Assembly: GCA_905067535.1 (NCBI GenBank)
Contig: CAJHIR010000002.1
Span: 1 to 30,121, forward strand
Length of the DNA stretch: 30,121 nucleotides
Direction of reading: 5' to 3'
DNA from: Candidatus Argoarchaeum ethanivorans
Lineage (GTDB): Archaea > Halobacteriota > Methanosarcinia > Methanosarcinales > EX4572-44
Part shown: piece after piece, positions 516-17,611 of the stretch
How the letters are laid out: every line of letters begins with the position of its first letter
How positions within the stretch are numbered: the stretch's first letter is position 1
The notes under the pieces: model-generated
What the model saw: the letters and a program-made list of their open reading frames with translations, nothing else
Told to the model about the DNA's origin: nothing
Database searches by the model: none
Translations under genes and position numbers: made by a program

Positions 516-1460
516 TTACTCCCCCTTAAGCTCATATTTTCCCAATCCATAAACAGTTCCTTTGCCTATGTGAAGGTATTCGCCAAGCGTCAGGTAGGGT
601 ACGAATTCGGCTAAATCTCCTTCAAATGTTATTTCTCCTACGAATCCACCCATTTTCATCCTTGTTGCTTGTCTCTGCGAGTAACGCTCCCAATCATGCC
701 ACTTCAAATCAGAATGGACGGTTTTGACATTCTCTTTTGCTCTTTTAATAAGTCCCTTCCAGTCGAGTTCCCATTTTTCACCACAATGAACCTCGGCAAG
801 CCAGGATAATCTTCGTAGTAGATTTCTAATCAGAATTTCAAAATCTATATCACGGGTAAGTTTCCCCGCGTATTTTATTCTTGTTGGCGTCAGAAAGCGA
901 AGTGTAACCCGGTGGTAATTGAGTTGTGCTGCTTTTCCGGTCAACTCGGCAGAATTTATCACCCATAAATTGTCCTTGAAATGCGAGTCGCCGTCATAAA
1001 TAAGTGTCTTTCTATCTTTAGTAAGGCTGATTACTTTTTCAAGTGAATACTTCCCTTTGCCCTTCCCTATTCCTACTCGCCCAAGTTCTTCAAATGCGAA
1101 GATAAAATAGGGGATGTAGTCTACCGCACGACCAACGAGGATGAGGTAAAAAACCAGATTGTCATCCATTCCATAACGCTGCCTTTCATCCAAGGGAGGC
1201 TCGATAACAAACGGGTGCGGGACATAATCGCCTTTCAATCGCCCCCCTTCTCTAGCTTCCTGCGACACAGAAGTCTCGAACACATAGGAATAGACACATT
1301 CATGCCGAAGCACGCACTTTGCACATTCTCCTTCCCTGTCCACACACACCGCACGCTTCAGAACATGCCCAAAACCACCCCGGAACGTCGAACCCTTGTA
1401 AGGAGGAAGAATAAGCTCCTCCAGTGGTCGTATAATAAATCGGCATTTAGACAGCTTCAT
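516..1460 (-). CDS. cas6: CRISPR pre-crRNA processing endoribonuclease Cas6
   Basis: A 314-residue RAMP-fold protein. Cas6 cuts the repeat in the pre-crRNA to release mature guides for type I or III complexes. The N-terminus (FIIRPLEELILPPYKGSTFRGGFGHVLKRAVC) is the typical Cas6 opening. Two CxxC-like pairs follow (CAKC, then HEC) around residues 46-55. The C-terminus has the glycine-rich RAMP loop (GEYLHIGKGTVYGLGKYEL), and GFVGEITFEGDL lies before it. Length fits the COG5551/PF10040 group. I place the start at the ATG at 1460, with AGGAG ten bases upstream; an in-frame GTG at 1466 is the alternative. A truncated CARF gene follows, and no array or effector cas genes lie in the window, so it is either an orphan or the edge of a locus that continues to the left. 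Confidence 0.85.
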   Translation of the reverse strand: MKLSKCRFIIRPLEELILPPYKGSTFRGGFGHVLKRAVCVDREGECAKCVLRHECVYSYVFETSVSQEAREGGRLKGDYVPHPFVIEPPLDERQRYGMDDNLVFYLILVGRAVDYIPYFIFAFEELGRVGIGKGKGKYSLEKVISLTKDRKTLIYDGDSHFKDNLWVINSAELTGKAAQLNYHRVTLRFLTPTRIKYAGKLTRDIDFEILIRNLLRRLSWLAEVHCGEKWELDWKGLIKRAKENVKTVHSDLKWHDWERYSQRQATRMKMGGFVGEITFEGDLAEFVPYLTLGEYLHIGKGTVYGLGKYELKGE

Positions 1461-1500
1461 CGACACTCTTCTCCTGTCTCATTTTCAGTAGCTCTTTGAG

Positions 1501-11923: not shown

Positions 11924-14900
11924 CTATCTCTTCCTGTAACCGCTATAGATGGCAGCAAGAAGCACAACGACAATGATTACTGCCAGAAACGGTGCCCCGG
12001 AAAGTAGAGATATTGCAGAACTCGCAGCATCGCTTACGGTCCGAACTTCCATTTCATAGCCTTCGACATGCTGGGAAGACTCTGACGCCTTTTGTACATT
12101 CTCACCAACACTTCCCTGCTGTGTCTGGTTAGAGTCGCCCCCTTTAGCTGCTATTATCTTTCCTTGATTCTTGGTTCCACCCCCACTATCATCATTTGTT
12201 GTCTGGCTGCTTGCACTGGTTTTCCCGGTCGCATCATCCATGATCTTACGATATTTGGCGTAAGTTTCATCTGAGACCACATCGGCACCAGGCACCGAGA
12301 CAACGCCTTCTACGAATTTATCAAGGAACGGGTTTCCACAGGTGTGATGGCAGCAGGTGACACCGTGCTCCACGATTGACTCCACATATTCATAGACTAA
12401 CGTGTTTAGCACCTCATCCGATGGTGTCCAGTGTCCCTTGCGTATCGTCTCAAGCATCCTGCCGGTCATGGACTGATATGCGTAAGGATTATTCTCGTTT
12501 GTGAACGTGTTTATATCCATATCCAGATTGTACTTGCCGTTGTATGCACCATTTACGTACACATCATAGACCTGCTGCCACATATTATCGGTGATCATGT
12601 CCGGAATTGTTGCCTCCCAGCCCCAGAGATATTCAACGAATCTGCTCATTTCCCGTCCACCTGCATAACCCTCGCCCATCATCCCCTCGATCCATTTTGG
12701 ATTGAAGTATCTGGTCCTGAGTTCTCTCTGGATTACCGACTCCAGTGTTGATGCGGTTGGACCCTCATCAGGATCACGATTATCAGTAACATAGAAATCA
12801 AGACTGCCCTTTCCCCCACTCGCTGTGTATGCAAGAGCAAGCCCGCCAACGTACTGGAAAACATCGTCATTATCGATGAACCCGTACAGATTCGAGTTCG
12901 TGTTGTGGACGATCGCATCGGTCTGTGCCAGGTTAAGACGGAACATTTCCTCGCTCGAAATACCCCATGAACTGTCGCCATAAATATAATTCATTCGGCT
13001 GATGAAGAGTTCGCCGATCTTTGAACTGTTATTCCAGGTCCCGCTTGCCCCGATTGCGGAATCGAGATTTGGTCCGTAAGTACCGGGTGCCTCAAGAAAG
13101 ATTCTTGACATCGAAAGATACCTTGCTTCTTCTTTGGTATATTTTCCTGTTTCATTCAGGGCCGCAAATATTCTATCCGAGTTCTCTTTGACGTAGTTTG
13201 GACATGCTGTGCCGTTTTGATACGTATCGTTTGCAGTCGCTGCAAGTCGGATCGCACGGTCGATTAATTTCAGCGCGTTTGGAGCAAAGTCTCGTTCCAG
13301 ACCGGATGGAACAACCATAACATCGATTCGCGAGCGATTAAGCTCGCTTACCGGTATCAGTGTGACATTGATGACCTTGTCGTATTCATCCCTGACAGGC
13401 TTTGCCCCGACAAGTCTCAAGATCTCAGACTCAACCACTCCGCCGTCTGTGGTGCACCATGCCCAGAGCACGATTGTGAACTTTCGCGGATAGCTGTTGT
13501 TATGGTCTGTACGGTAGCATTCGATGAGTGCATCTGCCATCTTTGTACCGATCTTGTATGCGGTTTCTGTTGGTATGCGATCCGGGTTTAATGAATGGAA
13601 ATTCCTGCCTGTCGGGAGCGCATCAGGGTCTCTGATTGGATCATCAGCAGTCGATGGTGGGATGTAGCTGCCGTTTAAGCCTTCAAGAGTCCTCTCTACT
13701 TCTACCGTGCAGTTATCAATCCTTCCTGCAAACACAATCGATCGATTCAGATACATAGTGATGTTTGCAGTAACACTTTCATTTGGGGAATATTTACTGA
13801 ATGTGAGGTTCTCCGCCTCTTCTGGAGTTGTTTCATTCAATATCACGTATTCAAGCAGTTTGGTGGTACAGTTGTCCAGTTCTAAATTCTTGTCCAGTTT
13901 TGTAGAATTTGGATAATCGTAATACTCGATCCGATCAGCGACTGCCCCAGTGTAGCCCTTTCTGAGCATTGATTTAATAAGCGAGATTAATGGTTCGCCC
14001 ACAGGCAGCGGCTCGCATGCCGGAGGTTCGCCGAATGTGTGTAGCCCGTAAGGCATAAACTCATTCTTTAGATTGTAGAGATAATCAGCAAGTTCGCTGA
14101 GGAACTCTTCGAAAGCAGGATCGTCTGCTGCGGTTGCGTTCAGTTCAGTAACGTTCATGGTATCGTTGAGATACGTCTCATTTAGGTATAGCTCCAGGTA
14201 GGTTACGATGATCTCGTCTTTGTAGCTTTCCTGCGAGACGTTGTCAACTGCTGCATAATAATCATTGATTGTCTTTAAGAGGTTGGTGTAATTGCCGTAC
14301 AACCCGGCAGCAACGATCGGGGGTGTCAGATGTGTAATCATCGTCGCGCTCCCCCTTCTCTTCGCCTGTGTGCCTTCAGCAATGTTGTCAACGATGTAAG
14401 GGTAGATCACAGGAATATCCTGAATCAGGATTGAAGGCCAGCAATCCTTGCTTGATAGCCCGGTCTCCTTTCCCGGGAGCCACTCCTGTGTGCCGTGTTT
14501 CCCGAAGTGGATGATTGCATCTGCACTGAACTCGTGCTTGAGCCAGAGATAGAATGCAATGTACTGGTGGTGCGGTGGGACGTCTTTGTTATGGTAGAGA
14601 ACTGTATTGTTCTGAAGCCAGCCTCTGGTTGGTTGTGGCGTAAGGATCACGTTTCCGAACGAGAGTTTTGGAATCACAAAGTACTGCTCCCCTGTTGTCT
14701 TGTTCTCCCACGTCATAATCTCGCCTGGAGGCTCCCCCCATCGTTCTGTCACATTTTCCTGCCGCGACTGTTCGAGTTCGTGGAACCATCTGGTATAATT
14801 TTCAACTGGGATCAGGGTTGCGGTCCCGGATTCAACGAGTTTTTCAAGTTCTCCTGGTGCCCATGTCCCGATGTTTGTGCCGTTTAATGTCATCATCTTA

Positions 14901-17611
14901 ACAAGCATGGTTTCGTTTGGAATCTCGCCTTCAATAGTGTATCCTGACAGATTCATGGCGTTTAAGATATTCTGGAGACTTGGAGGAACATTGACGTAAC
15001 ATGCACCGATGTTATCCTTGCCGCCGCCGTGATTGTAGTAGATCATAGCAATCTTCTTATCCTCTTTTGGAACATGGCGGAGATGCCCCCACGAAATTGC
15101 CCGATCGCAGGTCCAGTTAATCTGCTCGTCGATTGGCAGATATTCGTAATCTGATGCGTTCTTTCCAGCAATAACGATCGGGTCGATGATGCCATCGAGT
15201 TCCGGGAGCCCAACCTGGAAGCCGAGATCCATGATCGAGATGCCGTGACTTGTTTCATTCCTCCATAGAGAAGGCGGCATGTAATACAACCGGACTGCCC
15301 TCATTACAGGAACATTCAGGGTTTTTAGGTCTAAAACCCCTTGATCGGAATCATCGAAGTTGATACGGAATGATTTTGTACAGATGATGGCATCAACGAT
15401 CGTGCTGTTGTTTATGAAATAAAACTCTTTTAGATGGGAAGTTCCAGTGAATCCTATGGAAATAACGTTTGCTCCTTTTTCTTCCAGTGTATGGACGAGT
15501 TTCTCTATTTCAGGCGATTTTGTGGATACATGCCAGTTTGCAATGCCAATCGTGATGTTGCTCTGGTTGTAGTGATAACCAGTCTTGTTTGTTTCATCTG
15601 AGTACCACTTAAGGTACTCCCCGGTATCGAAAAAGCACTGGGGCGCATCCGGATGGTGTATAAATGCATCAGGTATTGGAAGCGAATCCTTGATGTTGCC
15701 TATGAGTCCACAGAAATTTACCTCAAGATATGTCAGCAACCGTGCGATATTGGTCTCATTGTAGTTGTCCCAGTACTGGTTGATGAATGGATGCTCTGTC
15801 AGGTTGACATTCCCAAAAATATCGTCATAAGCATCCGAATGAATACTGATGATTGGGACCCCGGTTCCGTTTGCAGTTTCAACTGCATTTTTAATCTTTT
15901 CAGCAGTTTCACCACCAATATGCTCAAGGAATACAAGATCATATCCTGTTAGATTGATTCCACTTTGAATATCAGATGGGTACAATAAGGTGATATTTGA
16001 ATTGCTTCTTTTAGATGTGTTTTCAATGAATTCATGCCGCTCAATCGTGATGAAAATAACTTCCGGTTTTTTTTTGATAATCTGTGTTGTAATCTCGATT
16101 GCCATCGTGGAGTTTTCTGGCGTTATCTCTTCTTTGCCATAATAGAATGTGACCATATCCCTCGCAGTGCTGGTTGCGTTTAATTCGGACTCATTTGCAG
16201 CAAGTGTTGGCTCCGGATCATCCGGATAATTTATCCAGTAGCGCCAGTACTTTCCTTCTGTTTCATTGTTTGAGACTTCTGCAACCGAATCGATGAATGC
16301 GTTGCGTGAGTCGTTGATCGTGAAATTAAATCCACCGCATCCCGCGGCTTTAACAAGTGCACCAAGTGCTGTGGTACGGTTGATCATGTGGTTTGTGCCG
16401 CTGTTGTTTGCTGTGACGTTTAAAGTCTCTCCTTGAAGCAGCACCGTGTTACCCTTCCAGAACCTATCAGGAGTTCCGAATGCGTACAGGTATCCGGTAT
16501 CTGATCCGATGAAGAGGATTCCGTCAGAAATAGATGGAGAGGACATGATATAGTTGCCAGTGTCGTAGCTCCAGCGAAGTGTACCATCGGTTGCATCCAG
16601 TGCATAGACAGTGCCATGACCAGTGTTTGTTCCAAAATAGACAGTTCCGTCTGCAACAGCAGGGGATGACCGTATTACATCATTTACCGATCTATTCCAA
16701 ACCTCATCTCCATTGCTCGCATTGAAGCAGTAAAATCTCTTTTCATCAGAGCCGATATAGACGTTTCCGTATGCGACCGCAGGCGAGGAGAACGTAACCG
16801 TTAGACTGCAATTCCACATCTCACCCTCTTCCATGTCAACAGCGTACATTCTGCTTTCCGTTGCGAAGAATACCACACCATCCTTGATTGCAGGTGTCGT
16901 TGTTACGTCATCTGATGTGTTGAATCTCCACAGAATCGAATGATCGCTGATGTTTACGCAGTACAGCGCAGGGTCGCCGCCAGCGAAGAAAATCCTGCCA
17001 TCAGATGCTGCCGGAGATGTGTATGAACCGATTCCGCCACCGGTTGTGACGTTCCAGAGTTCATTGCCGTCGAAATCGAAGGCATGGAGTGTTCCGTCTG
17101 AAAAACCACTTATAAATACTTTATCTTCATAAACAAGTGGGGAATCTCCAGTCTCATACCAATTCGGACTGGTTTCAATCGTTTCGTGCCAGATTGTCGC
17201 TCCATCCGATGCGTTCACACAGTACAGATCGCCGGTGCACGAACCCACGAAGATCCGGTCTCCTGATATGGCAGGTGTGGATCTGCCCCCCATGCCGCCA
17301 AGTTGGTTTCTCCAGAGGATCTCGCCGGTTGAGTTGTTCAGGCAGAACAATCCGAGATTGCTGTATGCCCCCATTGGGGGACATGTTGCCACATAAACAC
17401 GTTCACCAACGATGCTTACACCGCCTTCGATGCATCCCAACGATGATGGTTTCGTCTTCCAAAGCAGCGTGTCTGTGAGTGGTGCATCCCCGCTCGCGTT
17501 TCCTGTGCGCTCTGGGCCATGGTGGAACTGGGACCAGTCTGCGGATGTTAGAGGCAGGGTGAGTGCTACTAATAAAATTATTGTTAATATTTTTGTGTTC
17601 ATATATGCCAT
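11924..17611 (-). CDS. Surface-anchored fusion: PQQ-type propeller, DUF4430-like domain and CobN/BchH-type chelatase
   Basis: A 1,895-residue protein. Residues 1-24 are a signal peptide (KILTIILLVALTLPLTSA). Residues about 25-385 carry seven to eight repeats ending in patterns such as GDLYCVNASDGATIW and GTVYALDATDGTLRW, a PQQ-type beta-propeller. About 390-495 resembles DUF4430 (TALGALVKAAG...YWRYWINYPDDPEPTLAANESEL), a domain related to the transcobalamin C-terminus. From about 510 to 1790 it resembles CobN and magnesium-chelatase subunit H; HFGKHGTQEWLPGKETGLS (1035-1053) is the signature. A low-complexity linker leads to one membrane helix (PFLAVIIVVVLLAAIYSGY) and a basic end (RKR), giving an outside chelatase domain. 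N-x-S/T sequons are very frequent, as expected of an exported glycoprotein. It stands alone, with no ATPase partner (CobS/T, ChlI/D). Metal or tetrapyrrole handling at the surface is inference. Start: ATG 17611, or 17602. Confidence 0.88.
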   Translation of the reverse strand: MAYMNTKILTIILLVALTLPLTSADWSQFHHGPERTGNASGDAPLTDTLLWKTKPSSLGCIEGGVSIVGERVYVATCPPMGAYSNLGLFCLNNSTGEILWRNQLGGMGGRSTPAISGDRIFVGSCTGDLYCVNASDGATIWHETIETSPNWYETGDSPLVYEDKVFISGFSDGTLHAFDFDGNELWNVTTGGGIGSYTSPAASDGRIFFAGGDPALYCVNISDHSILWRFNTSDDVTTTPAIKDGVVFFATESRMYAVDMEEGEMWNCSLTVTFSSPAVAYGNVYIGSDEKRFYCFNASNGDEVWNRSVNDVIRSSPAVADGTVYFGTNTGHGTVYALDATDGTLRWSYDTGNYIMSSPSISDGILFIGSDTGYLYAFGTPDRFWKGNTVLLQGETLNVTANNSGTNHMINRTTALGALVKAAGCGGFNFTINDSRNAFIDSVAEVSNNETEGKYWRYWINYPDDPEPTLAANESELNATSTARDMVTFYYGKEEITPENSTMAIEITTQIIKKKPEVIFITIERHEFIENTSKRSNSNITLLYPSDIQSGINLTGYDLVFLEHIGGETAEKIKNAVETANGTGVPIISIHSDAYDDIFGNVNLTEHPFINQYWDNYNETNIARLLTYLEVNFCGLIGNIKDSLPIPDAFIHHPDAPQCFFDTGEYLKWYSDETNKTGYHYNQSNITIGIANWHVSTKSPEIEKLVHTLEEKGANVISIGFTGTSHLKEFYFINNSTIVDAIICTKSFRINFDDSDQGVLDLKTLNVPVMRAVRLYYMPPSLWRNETSHGISIMDLGFQVGLPELDGIIDPIVIAGKNASDYEYLPIDEQINWTCDRAISWGHLRHVPKEDKKIAMIYYNHGGGKDNIGACYVNVPPSLQNILNAMNLSGYTIEGEIPNETMLVKMMTLNGTNIGTWAPGELEKLVESGTATLIPVENYTRWFHELEQSRQENVTERWGEPPGEIMTWENKTTGEQYFVIPKLSFGNVILTPQPTRGWLQNNTVLYHNKDVPPHHQYIAFYLWLKHEFSADAIIHFGKHGTQEWLPGKETGLSSKDCWPSILIQDIPVIYPYIVDNIAEGTQAKRRGSATMITHLTPPIVAAGLYGNYTNLLKTINDYYAAVDNVSQESYKDEIIVTYLELYLNETYLNDTMNVTELNATAADDPAFEEFLSELADYLYNLKNEFMPYGLHTFGEPPACEPLPVGEPLISLIKSMLRKGYTGAVADRIEYYDYPNSTKLDKNLELDNCTTKLLEYVILNETTPEEAENLTFSKYSPNESVTANITMYLNRSIVFAGRIDNCTVEVERTLEGLNGSYIPPSTADDPIRDPDALPTGRNFHSLNPDRIPTETAYKIGTKMADALIECYRTDHNNSYPRKFTIVLWAWCTTDGGVVESEILRLVGAKPVRDEYDKVINVTLIPVSELNRSRIDVMVVPSGLERDFAPNALKLIDRAIRLAATANDTYQNGTACPNYVKENSDRIFAALNETGKYTKEEARYLSMSRIFLEAPGTYGPNLDSAIGASGTWNNSSKIGELFISRMNYIYGDSSWGISSEEMFRLNLAQTDAIVHNTNSNLYGFIDNDDVFQYVGGLALAYTASGGKGSLDFYVTDNRDPDEGPTASTLESVIQRELRTRYFNPKWIEGMMGEGYAGGREMSRFVEYLWGWEATIPDMITDNMWQQVYDVYVNGAYNGKYNLDMDINTFTNENNPYAYQSMTGRMLETIRKGHWTPSDEVLNTLVYEYVESIVEHGVTCCHHTCGNPFLDKFVEGVVSVPGADVVSDETYAKYRKIMDDATGKTSASSQTTNDDSGGGTKNQGKIIAAKGGDSNQTQQGSVGENVQKASESSQHVEGYEMEVRTVSDAASSAISLLSGAPFLAVIIVVVLLAAIYSGYRKR

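Follow-up and report, generated by a model that had tools for sequence, protein, structure and literature searches.

HmuS, encoded in the hmuYRSTUV operon of Bacteroidota, was shown to work without ATP, and its catalysis involves His538 with Glu577, opposite Asp1208/His1209 and Glu1212 (PMC12583661; papers are cited here by PMC number and for the excerpts concerned). The same excerpt mentions an exported CobN-like family as unexplained, and two CobN-like proteins of M. barkeri, named 'BtuS', respond to the iron source (PMC10846266). The hmuYRSTUV operons of P. gingivalis and P. intermedia comprise a CobN gene and a hypothetical gene, followed by ExbB-type and DUF2149 genes (PMC10434189), and HmuT is described as a putative permease (PMC13227078). 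Here we analyze a protein of this kind, P0001, which is encoded on a stretch of 30,121 nucleotides of contig CAJHIR010000002.1 (the window) and had been described in a first-pass annotation from the sequence alone.

Judged by alignment and tree, P0001 is a chelatase-type protein of class I that shares its lineage with HmuS and is not a cytosolic cobaltochelatase. It is a member of a large Methanosarcinales clade of 'CobN' proteins that are exported and rich in sequons. We tentatively predict that it acts at the cell surface as a corrinoid or metal-tetrapyrrole (de)chelatase coupled to the proton-motive force, a reading that appears plausible, if somewhat short of probable.

Gene and domain organization

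P0001 is encoded by a single intact open reading frame (ORF). The minus frame is open across 1895 residues, and the plus frame at the same place is full of stops; the first-pass coordinates were right, and the strand is minus. In the following, G denotes a genome and L a stretch of a relative's DNA. The relatives L001, L002 and L003 cover residues 38-1895, 1-1895 and 2-1895 with best-segment identities of 89, 78 and 84%, L001 being cut by its contig. Close relatives were found in Candidatus Argoarchaeum ethanivorans and Candidatus Ethanoperedens thermophilum, and the host is most likely an archaeal ethane oxidizer of the GoM-Arc1 group. The features of the gene, all on the minus strand, are as follows.

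11924..17611, minus: whole gene of P0001, a predicted exported, membrane-anchored propeller-DUF4430-CobN protein of 1895 residues (ORF, Pfam, NCBIfam, relatives)
17540..17611, minus: signal peptide, residues 1-24 (MAYMNTKILTIILLVALTLPLTSA), from the sequence and a hydropathy window of 2.01 in the first 60 residues, with a guessed cleavage site
16472..17536, minus: eight-bladed beta-propeller of the pyrroloquinoline quinone (PQQ)/BamB type, residues 26-380 approximately (Pfam, AlphaFold2 model, Foldseek)
16097..16471, minus: DUF4430-like domain, residues 381-505 approximately (Pfam E 0.0044, below cut-off; above cut-off in the homologues L058 and L062)
15779..16096, minus: chelatase head region (domain I), residues 506-611 (sequence alignment; AlphaFold2 model of 545-1744)
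12410..15778, minus: CobN/ChlH/HmuS chelatase body, residues 612-1734 (Pfam, 1053.8 bits; Foldseek)
14468..14509, minus: active-site motif 1, HFGKHGTQEWLPGK (1035-1048), in which H1039 corresponds to the catalytic His538 of HmuS
12842..12871, minus: active-site motif 2, NDDVFQYVGG (1581-1590), with D1583 and Q1586 at the positions of HmuS His1209 and Glu1212
12332..12355, minus: juxtamembrane Cys/His motif CCHHTCGN (1753-1760), common to the exported members
11939..12007, minus: C-terminal transmembrane anchor, residues 1869-1891 approximately, followed by YRKR (sequence; hydropathy 2.79)

A low-complexity linker lies between the CCHHTCGN motif and the membrane helix.

Chelatase lineage and export

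The Pfam match to CobN-Mg_chel spans profile positions 2-1089 of 1090 and includes HFGxHG. The AlphaFold2 model of residues 545-1744 reached a predicted local distance difference test score (pLDDT) of 85.1, and its best Foldseek matches were HmuS (9d26; E 8.9e-72, TM 0.82/0.78) and CobN (7c6o; E 2.2e-70, TM 0.80/0.81), several VIA rows of this structure comparison leaving out the head region. HmuS was also the best PDB match by whole-protein sequence score, while residues 600-1210 alone scored best with ChlH/BchH (4zhj). A tree placed 52 exported proteins together with HmuS against 11 cytosolic ones with CobN and ChlH (support 100/98). The archaeal class had been recognized correctly in the first-pass annotation. 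HmuS, which needs no ATP and is the closest characterized relative by whole-protein sequence score, went unnamed there.

The proposed export signal and C-terminal membrane helix were borne out by hydrophobic segments at both ends, seen by eye and in the hydropathy values given above. P0001 contains 64 N-x-S/T sequons where composition shuffles gave 19.6 +/- 3.8, in line with the dense sequons noted before. For comparison we assembled 86 different CobN-family ORFs with a length of 1100 residues or more from relatives and the window, of which 65 were called exported and 20 cytosolic. The call was made by length (exported above 1340 residues, L007 excepted), and L004, cut by a contig end, was left out. 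Sequon density parted the two groups fully, with 1.23-3.38 per 100 residues in the exported (3.4 in P0001) and 0.08-0.47 in the 20 cytosolic archaeal proteins. Exported ORFs complete at both ends had hydrophobic ends, except L058 and L064:1455 (C end) and L075:2098 (N end). From these signatures P0001 is an extracytoplasmic, membrane-anchored protein, and CobN-like surface proteins exist in archaea as a class.

Databases already annotate the family, as 'cobaltochelatase subunit CobN', and a working partnership with ChlI/D ATPases would follow from that name. NCBIfam similarity agrees with it, although P0001 scores below the cut-off of each cobN/bchH model listed (NF004645, an equivalog model aligned to 530-1895, 1178 bits against 1619; TIGR02257, likewise an equivalog, 590 against 822), and signal peptide, sequons and anchor place the protein outside. 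No CobS/T or ChlI/D partner was recognized by Pfam among the 20 scanned of the 37 window ORFs of at least 100 residues, which agrees with the earlier remark that no ATPase subunit is nearby. Elsewhere, TIGR02442, which models the ChlID-type ATPase, detected a long subunit next to cytosolic CobN genes (e.g. G001 C10, G008 C65, G019 C13); in G001, a separate cytosolic CobN adjoins such an ATPase (777.7 bits, slightly below cut-off). Five genomes that are 99% complete (G009, G013, G017, G041 and G045) contained only long-frame CobN and gave no TIGR02442 match better than E 2.3e-6; the exported kind therefore does not depend everywhere on a ChlID-type ATPase. Split ChlI/ChlD-like pairs occurred in genomes without a CobN match (G007, G010, G018) and in several with exported CobN (e.g. 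G021, G033). Taken together, an ordinary cobaltochelatase subunit is highly improbable.

Active site

P0001 keeps the HmuS residues His538 (H1039), Glu577 (E1079) and Asp1208 (D1582), which are conserved in 59, 63 and 59 of the 65 exported proteins, respectively; the catalytic His is present in 20 of 20 cytosolic ones. Structure comparison, one of the checks that the first-pass annotation had proposed, returned a matching fold (9d26, 7c6o), and the alignment showed the catalytic His and Glu in place; none of the findings that would have refuted that annotation (no export signal, loss of all metal- and tetrapyrrole-binding residues, no propeller or DUF4430 segment) was made. The HmuS motif LSLDHxxEFMGG is absent, the corresponding segment of P0001 being IDNDDVFQYVGG, and D1583/Q1586 agree with the residues of CobN 7c6o (SDDYFQ). 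Because these two residues replace His1209/Glu1212, P0001 is not HmuS and is CobN-like at that site. Position 1583 is Asp in 48, His in 9, Glu in 4, Met in 3 and Gly in 1 of the exported proteins. The HmuS-type DHxxEF occurs in nine, seven of which have FDHxYEFFGG and a length of 1868-2078 residues where complete.

The HmuS heme ligands Met79 and His254 are unmatched in the alignment (I565 and S747). H564 lies one residue ahead of the Met79 column and is possibly a shifted heme ligand. Among 64 exported rows the residue before this column is Met in 33, His in 19 (every one of the 11 P0001-type proteins among them) and another residue in 12, and it is His in 5 of 20 cytosolic proteins; a ligand role of the His in the P0001 type is suggestive only. 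The Met-rich insertion of HmuS domain IV has no counterpart, with two Met in the 110 residues 1193-1302. The CCHHTCGN-type motif was found in 64 of the 65 exported proteins (49 exact) and in none of the 20 cytosolic archaeal ones; HmuS has CSGFVCDN at the aligned place.

The catalytic His is lost in six of the 65 exported proteins, as in IFAIFTGIEMMPGK (L053:1605-6164, L049:7770-12326, L056:6764-11350, L057:15662-19900, L060:226-4758 and L071:1-4215), and four of these paralogues adjoin other exported copies. The six may be receptor or regulatory subunits. Such paralogues speak for a non-catalytic tetrapyrrole receptor, in which the chelatase fold would bind intact corrinoid or heme and hand it to a DUF2162 permease (see below). 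The occurrence of the propeller-DUF4430 module with a substrate-binding domain and in stand-alone propeller proteins points the same way. P0001 and its clade, however, keep H1039, E1079 and D1582, beyond what a receptor needs, and we regard this alternative as doubtful.

Three further observations concern the active site across the family. In 15 of the 20 cytosolic archaeal CobN proteins, GCCC stands where 7c6o has SDDYFQYHGG (e.g. CGCCCYFGTHGG; set L005, L007-L023), and several of these adjoin a ChlID-type ATPase. The HmuS-type DHxxEF site was seen in an exported archaeal CobN of about 2060 residues and its relatives (L052:5754-11930), whose SpaA- and fn3_3-type Pfam matches (1216-1273) fall within the gap of the CobN match, perhaps at the place of the HmuS Met-rich insertion. 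A cytosolic-looking CobN of G014 (L041:170-3955) carries DLDHYYEFFGG and, in the tree, is placed deepest among the rows that fall on the cytosolic side.

Propeller and DUF4430 segment

A propeller of about eight blades had been predicted; Pfam agrees with the propeller, and structure modeling with the number of blades. In the whole protein, propeller models matched residues 45-380 approximately; in the AlphaFold2 model of residues 22-562 we counted, from the listed strands, eight four-stranded blades with a block-mean pLDDT of 75-96, and Foldseek matched the fold to designed propellers and BamB. Family membership as a PQQ-dependent dehydrogenase was missed by a wide margin (TIGR03075, 51 bits against 480).

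The DUF4430-like domain claimed earlier is present as a segment, though a weak one. It was unlisted at E 0.01 in the whole-protein Pfam scan, and scanned alone it reached 17.9 bits against the PF14478 cut-off of 23.8. At the same place, the homologues L058 (24.4 bits) and L062 (34.3 bits) exceed the cut-off, and L064:1455 (19.4 bits) remains below. The combination of propeller, DUF4430 and CobN, which had suggested a cell-surface device in the first-pass annotation, is no rarity: of the 120 top N-terminal matches listed (at least 500 in all), 49 carry CobN as well, the window's own included, and bear names such as Methanothrix and Methanogasteraceae.

Another protein, P0089, combines a similar propeller and two stretches of DUF4430 with a Peripla_BP_2 domain that precedes them. 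In the PDB this domain best matched a vitamin-B12-binding, an iron-binding and a heme-binding protein. A search for such a fusion in 119 genomes at E 1e-60 gave no listed match extending deeper into the domain (157-383) than residue 332.

Stand-alone propeller proteins with dockerin matches adjoin the fused gene in L037 and L004; L062 has a dockerin match too, and L064:1455 a weak one (E 0.016). These dockerins, the propeller and the predicted glycosylation would suit a surface adhesion or scaffold protein with the chelatase domain as a relic. We judge such a role very unlikely, given that active-site residues are kept in P0001 and most exported members and that about half of the latter lie near DUF2162-ExbB-DUF2149 genes.

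Partner genes

Clustering of the neighbors of exported CobN genes yielded three recurrent families, identified by Pfam on one example each as DUF2162 (3.9e-66), MotA/TolQ/ExbB (2.2e-10) and DUF2149 (2.3e-31). The first-pass annotation had missed these partners, which lie outside the window. Wherever all three are present, their order is DUF2162-ExbB-DUF2149. After removal of one spurious small ORF (L012) and six duplicate places from 31 listed pairs, 24 pairs of exported CobN and partner remained within 1.6 kb, on the same strand, at 23 loci in 20 genomes. Altogether, 34 of the 65 exported ORFs share the fetched stretch with a DUF2162, ExbB-like or ExbD-like DUF2149 gene. At the start of the DUF2149 membrane segment, VANxFD is invariant in 31 of 31 aligned ORFs. 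It is reminiscent of the membrane Asp of ExbD/TolR/MotB.

Co-occurrence was counted with the kinds of CobN pooled and genomes that are not independent, which makes the Fisher test values look stronger than warranted. Among 60 relatives, 37 had both a CobN-family gene and DUF2149, 18 had neither, three had CobN only (G038, G047, G054) and two DUF2149 only (G003 and G046, both less than 80% complete). In 196 genomes of the phylum, at least 90% complete except G001, DUF2149 occurred in 60, all of which had a CobN-family gene; 63 had CobN only and 73 neither. Two sister genomes, G004 and G002, carry the DUF2162-ExbB-DUF2149 set on another contig without CobN (L096, L097), and in G004 it adjoins hemB. 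Cultured Methanosarcina, Methanolobus and Methanococcoides carry a DUF2162 gene. In the three-gene set, DUF2162 precedes ExbB and is by this position a candidate counterpart of HmuT.

More ExbB and DUF2149 pairs of the GoM-Arc1 family, with no exported CobN in the stretch, were seen in L098, L099, L101, L102, L103, L104 and L105, and several lower-scoring kinds of DUF2149 exist. A role of DUF2162 as an electron conduit of the DsbD/CcdA kind was not supported: hhalign gave a probability of 0.7% and E 0.078 in a comparison with 13 ORFs chosen by their position, of which one or more were not DsbD-like.

Cobalt or corrinoid versus heme

In L096, the gene divergent from the DUF2162-ExbB-DUF2149 set encodes an ArsR-type helix-turn-helix (HTH) and a DUF4430 (E 4e-9, above cut-off). 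This probable ligand-sensing regulator shares its domain type with P0001, in which that domain is weak; of 119 Methanosarcinales genomes, 70 contain homologues of the regulator. ArsR-HTH joined to DUF4430 was seen at L096:10768-11292 and L188:5106-5612. The regulator adjoins DUF2162/DUF2149 in 8 of the 39 genomes with both (G002, G004, G057, G167, G181, G185, G235 and G239). Thirteen regulator regions were fetched, two of which showed no regulator ORF. Genes for the cobalt transporter components CbiM and CbiQ, above NCBIfam cut-offs, lie near the regulator in G036 and in one of two G017 regions. The G005 region has a ChlID-type ATPase place about 1 kb away, and the G057 region a CobN operon; by eye, no such gene was recognized in the other fetched regions. 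The DUF4430 of the regulator exceeded the cut-off in L096 and L188, fell short of it in L181, L189 and L193, and was unreported in L186.

Cobalt or a corrinoid is favored as the substrate of P0001 only indirectly, mainly because of this link between the DUF4430 regulator and cobalt-transporter genes. The CobN-type DDxFQ active-site pair also favors it. P0089, joining the propeller-DUF4430 module to a Peripla_BP_2 domain, speaks for the proposed surface (de)chelatase. The capture or remodeling of metal-tetrapyrroles suggested in the first-pass annotation fits fold and residues, and nothing found favors its candidate F430.

Alternatively, P0001 might be a heme de-chelatase like HmuS and take Fe(II) out of heme, for which multiheme cytochromes of the consortium are a possible source, the iron entering via Fe(II) transporters. 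HmuS is the best PDB match by whole-protein sequence score and Foldseek E-value and groups with the exported clade, the hmu operon contains an ExbB/DUF2149 pair too (PMC10434189), the two M. barkeri 'BtuS' proteins change with the iron source (PMC10846266), and in L001 the orthologue has a DtxR-type repressor and hemC at a distance of 4-6 kb. Set against the CobN-like D1583/Q1586 and the regulator link, these points leave a heme de-chelatase unlikely.

Proposed mechanism

In the mechanism we propose, the propeller and DUF4430 would capture a metal-tetrapyrrole at the surface, a corrinoid being the likeliest one, and the chelatase body, judged by fold and residues, would exchange or remove its metal; by analogy with HmuS, removal is favored over insertion. 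The membrane-proximal Cys/His motif might then take over the metal, and the DUF2162 permease might import metal or ligand, both steps being speculative. Instead of a CobST/ChlID ATPase, the ExbB/DUF2149 pair would power the system with proton-motive force, as the linkage in relatives and the lack of an ATPase suggest. These archaea are not known to have an outer membrane to energize. A more specific version, which we find rather doubtful, holds that the ExbB/DUF2149 motor directly energizes the exported CobN/HmuS-type subunit, which would pull cobalt or another metal from environmental corrinoids or porphyrins free of ATP, DUF4430 being a ligand reader shared between inside (ArsR-type regulator) and outside (capture domain).

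Several observations weigh against the surface (de)chelatase proposed here. Neither DUF2162 nor ExbB-like nor DUF2149 genes occur in the window; 31 of the 65 exported ORFs have no partner in their stretch, some on contigs of 5-8 kb, and of the 11 P0001-type proteins only one has a partner there (L062, with one ORF between). DUF2149 was also present in G005 and G034, in which only short CobN was found, and in G003 and G046, in which none was found. HmuT is likened to DUF2162 by position only, no Bacteroidota protein was named among the 118 matches of a DUF2162 profile search, and the published role of HmuU/HmuV, in the excerpts concerned, is to power HmuR. The regulator lies elsewhere in 31 of the 39 genomes, six scanned genomes with it have no DUF2149, and Pfam saw no DUF4430 in the G017 regulator beside CbiM (L186). 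The DUF4430 of P0001 stays under the Pfam cut-off, with AlphaFold2 pLDDT below 50 (11 sequences), and we take this domain to be a corrinoid binder by assumption. The six exported paralogues lacking the catalytic His count here as well.

If true, the proposal describes a proton-motive route for harvesting metal cofactors at the archaeal cell surface and adds a salvage route for cofactor metals to anaerobic alkane-oxidizing consortia; the view of HmuU/V function would change, and many 'cobaltochelatase' database entries would be mis-described. If the directly motor-energized version is true, HmuU/V in Bacteroidota act on HmuS/T, not only on HmuR. The exported clade with HmuS, the three-gene partner set with its proton-channel pair, the Cys/His signature and the DUF4430 regulator make the answer testable. 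Methanosarcina is genetically tractable.

Other neighboring genes

A CRISPR Cas6-type endoribonuclease gene lies near the window edge (516-1466, minus strand). A folate-gene operon (SHMT, FolD and DHPS upstream) was rejected as a partner; the same neighbors occur in L037, with a propeller-dockerin ORF between, and are absent in L003 of Ethanoperedens, leaving position only. In L001:9776-12735, the DtxR-type repressor and hemC are accompanied by a gene for a tetrapyrrole methylase; all three lie at 4-7 kb from the orthologue of P0001 in G001.

Comparison with known systems

In the literature searched, no archaeal hmu-type or exported-CobN operon was found described, and neither the clade with its partner set nor the C-terminal motif nor the DUF4430 regulator link was found in print. 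The main text of Chadwick 2022 contains no 'CobN', 'chelatase' or 'cobalamin', and searches on DUF4430 and CblR gave nothing useful.

The cobN-exbB-exbD-tonB cluster of Geobacter lovleyi plasmid pSZ77, likened here by description only, combines a CobN-like gene with ExbB/ExbD, and no CobS/T was found according to the cited excerpt; unlike P0001, it belongs to a Gram-negative host with TonB and outer-membrane receptors (PMC3403914). ChlH/BchH (4zhj) shares the fold and the HFGxHG motif with P0001 and differs in being ATP-driven (PMC12583661), in its second motif and in its place on the opposite side of the tree. CobN (7c6o), working with CobST, shares the fold and the DDxFQ pair. Both this CobN and the cytosolic archaeal CobN with its ChlID-type ATPase differ from P0001, which is predicted to be exported, has no ATPase partner in view and lies on the other side of the tree; most cytosolic archaeal proteins, moreover, have GCCC at the DDxFQ place. 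HmuS (9d26) resembles P0001 in fold, tree side, predicted membrane-anchored extracytoplasmic location, the conserved His538 and Glu577 and a C-terminal Cys motif, and its operon has ExbB-type and DUF2149 genes, as do many archaeal relatives of P0001. In contrast to HmuS, P0001 has Asp/Gln for His1209/Glu1212, no match to Met79/His254 and no Met-rich insertion, and its partners are not linked to it in the window; it adds a propeller and a DUF4430-like domain, has a single C-terminal anchor in the mature protein and belongs to an archaeal host.

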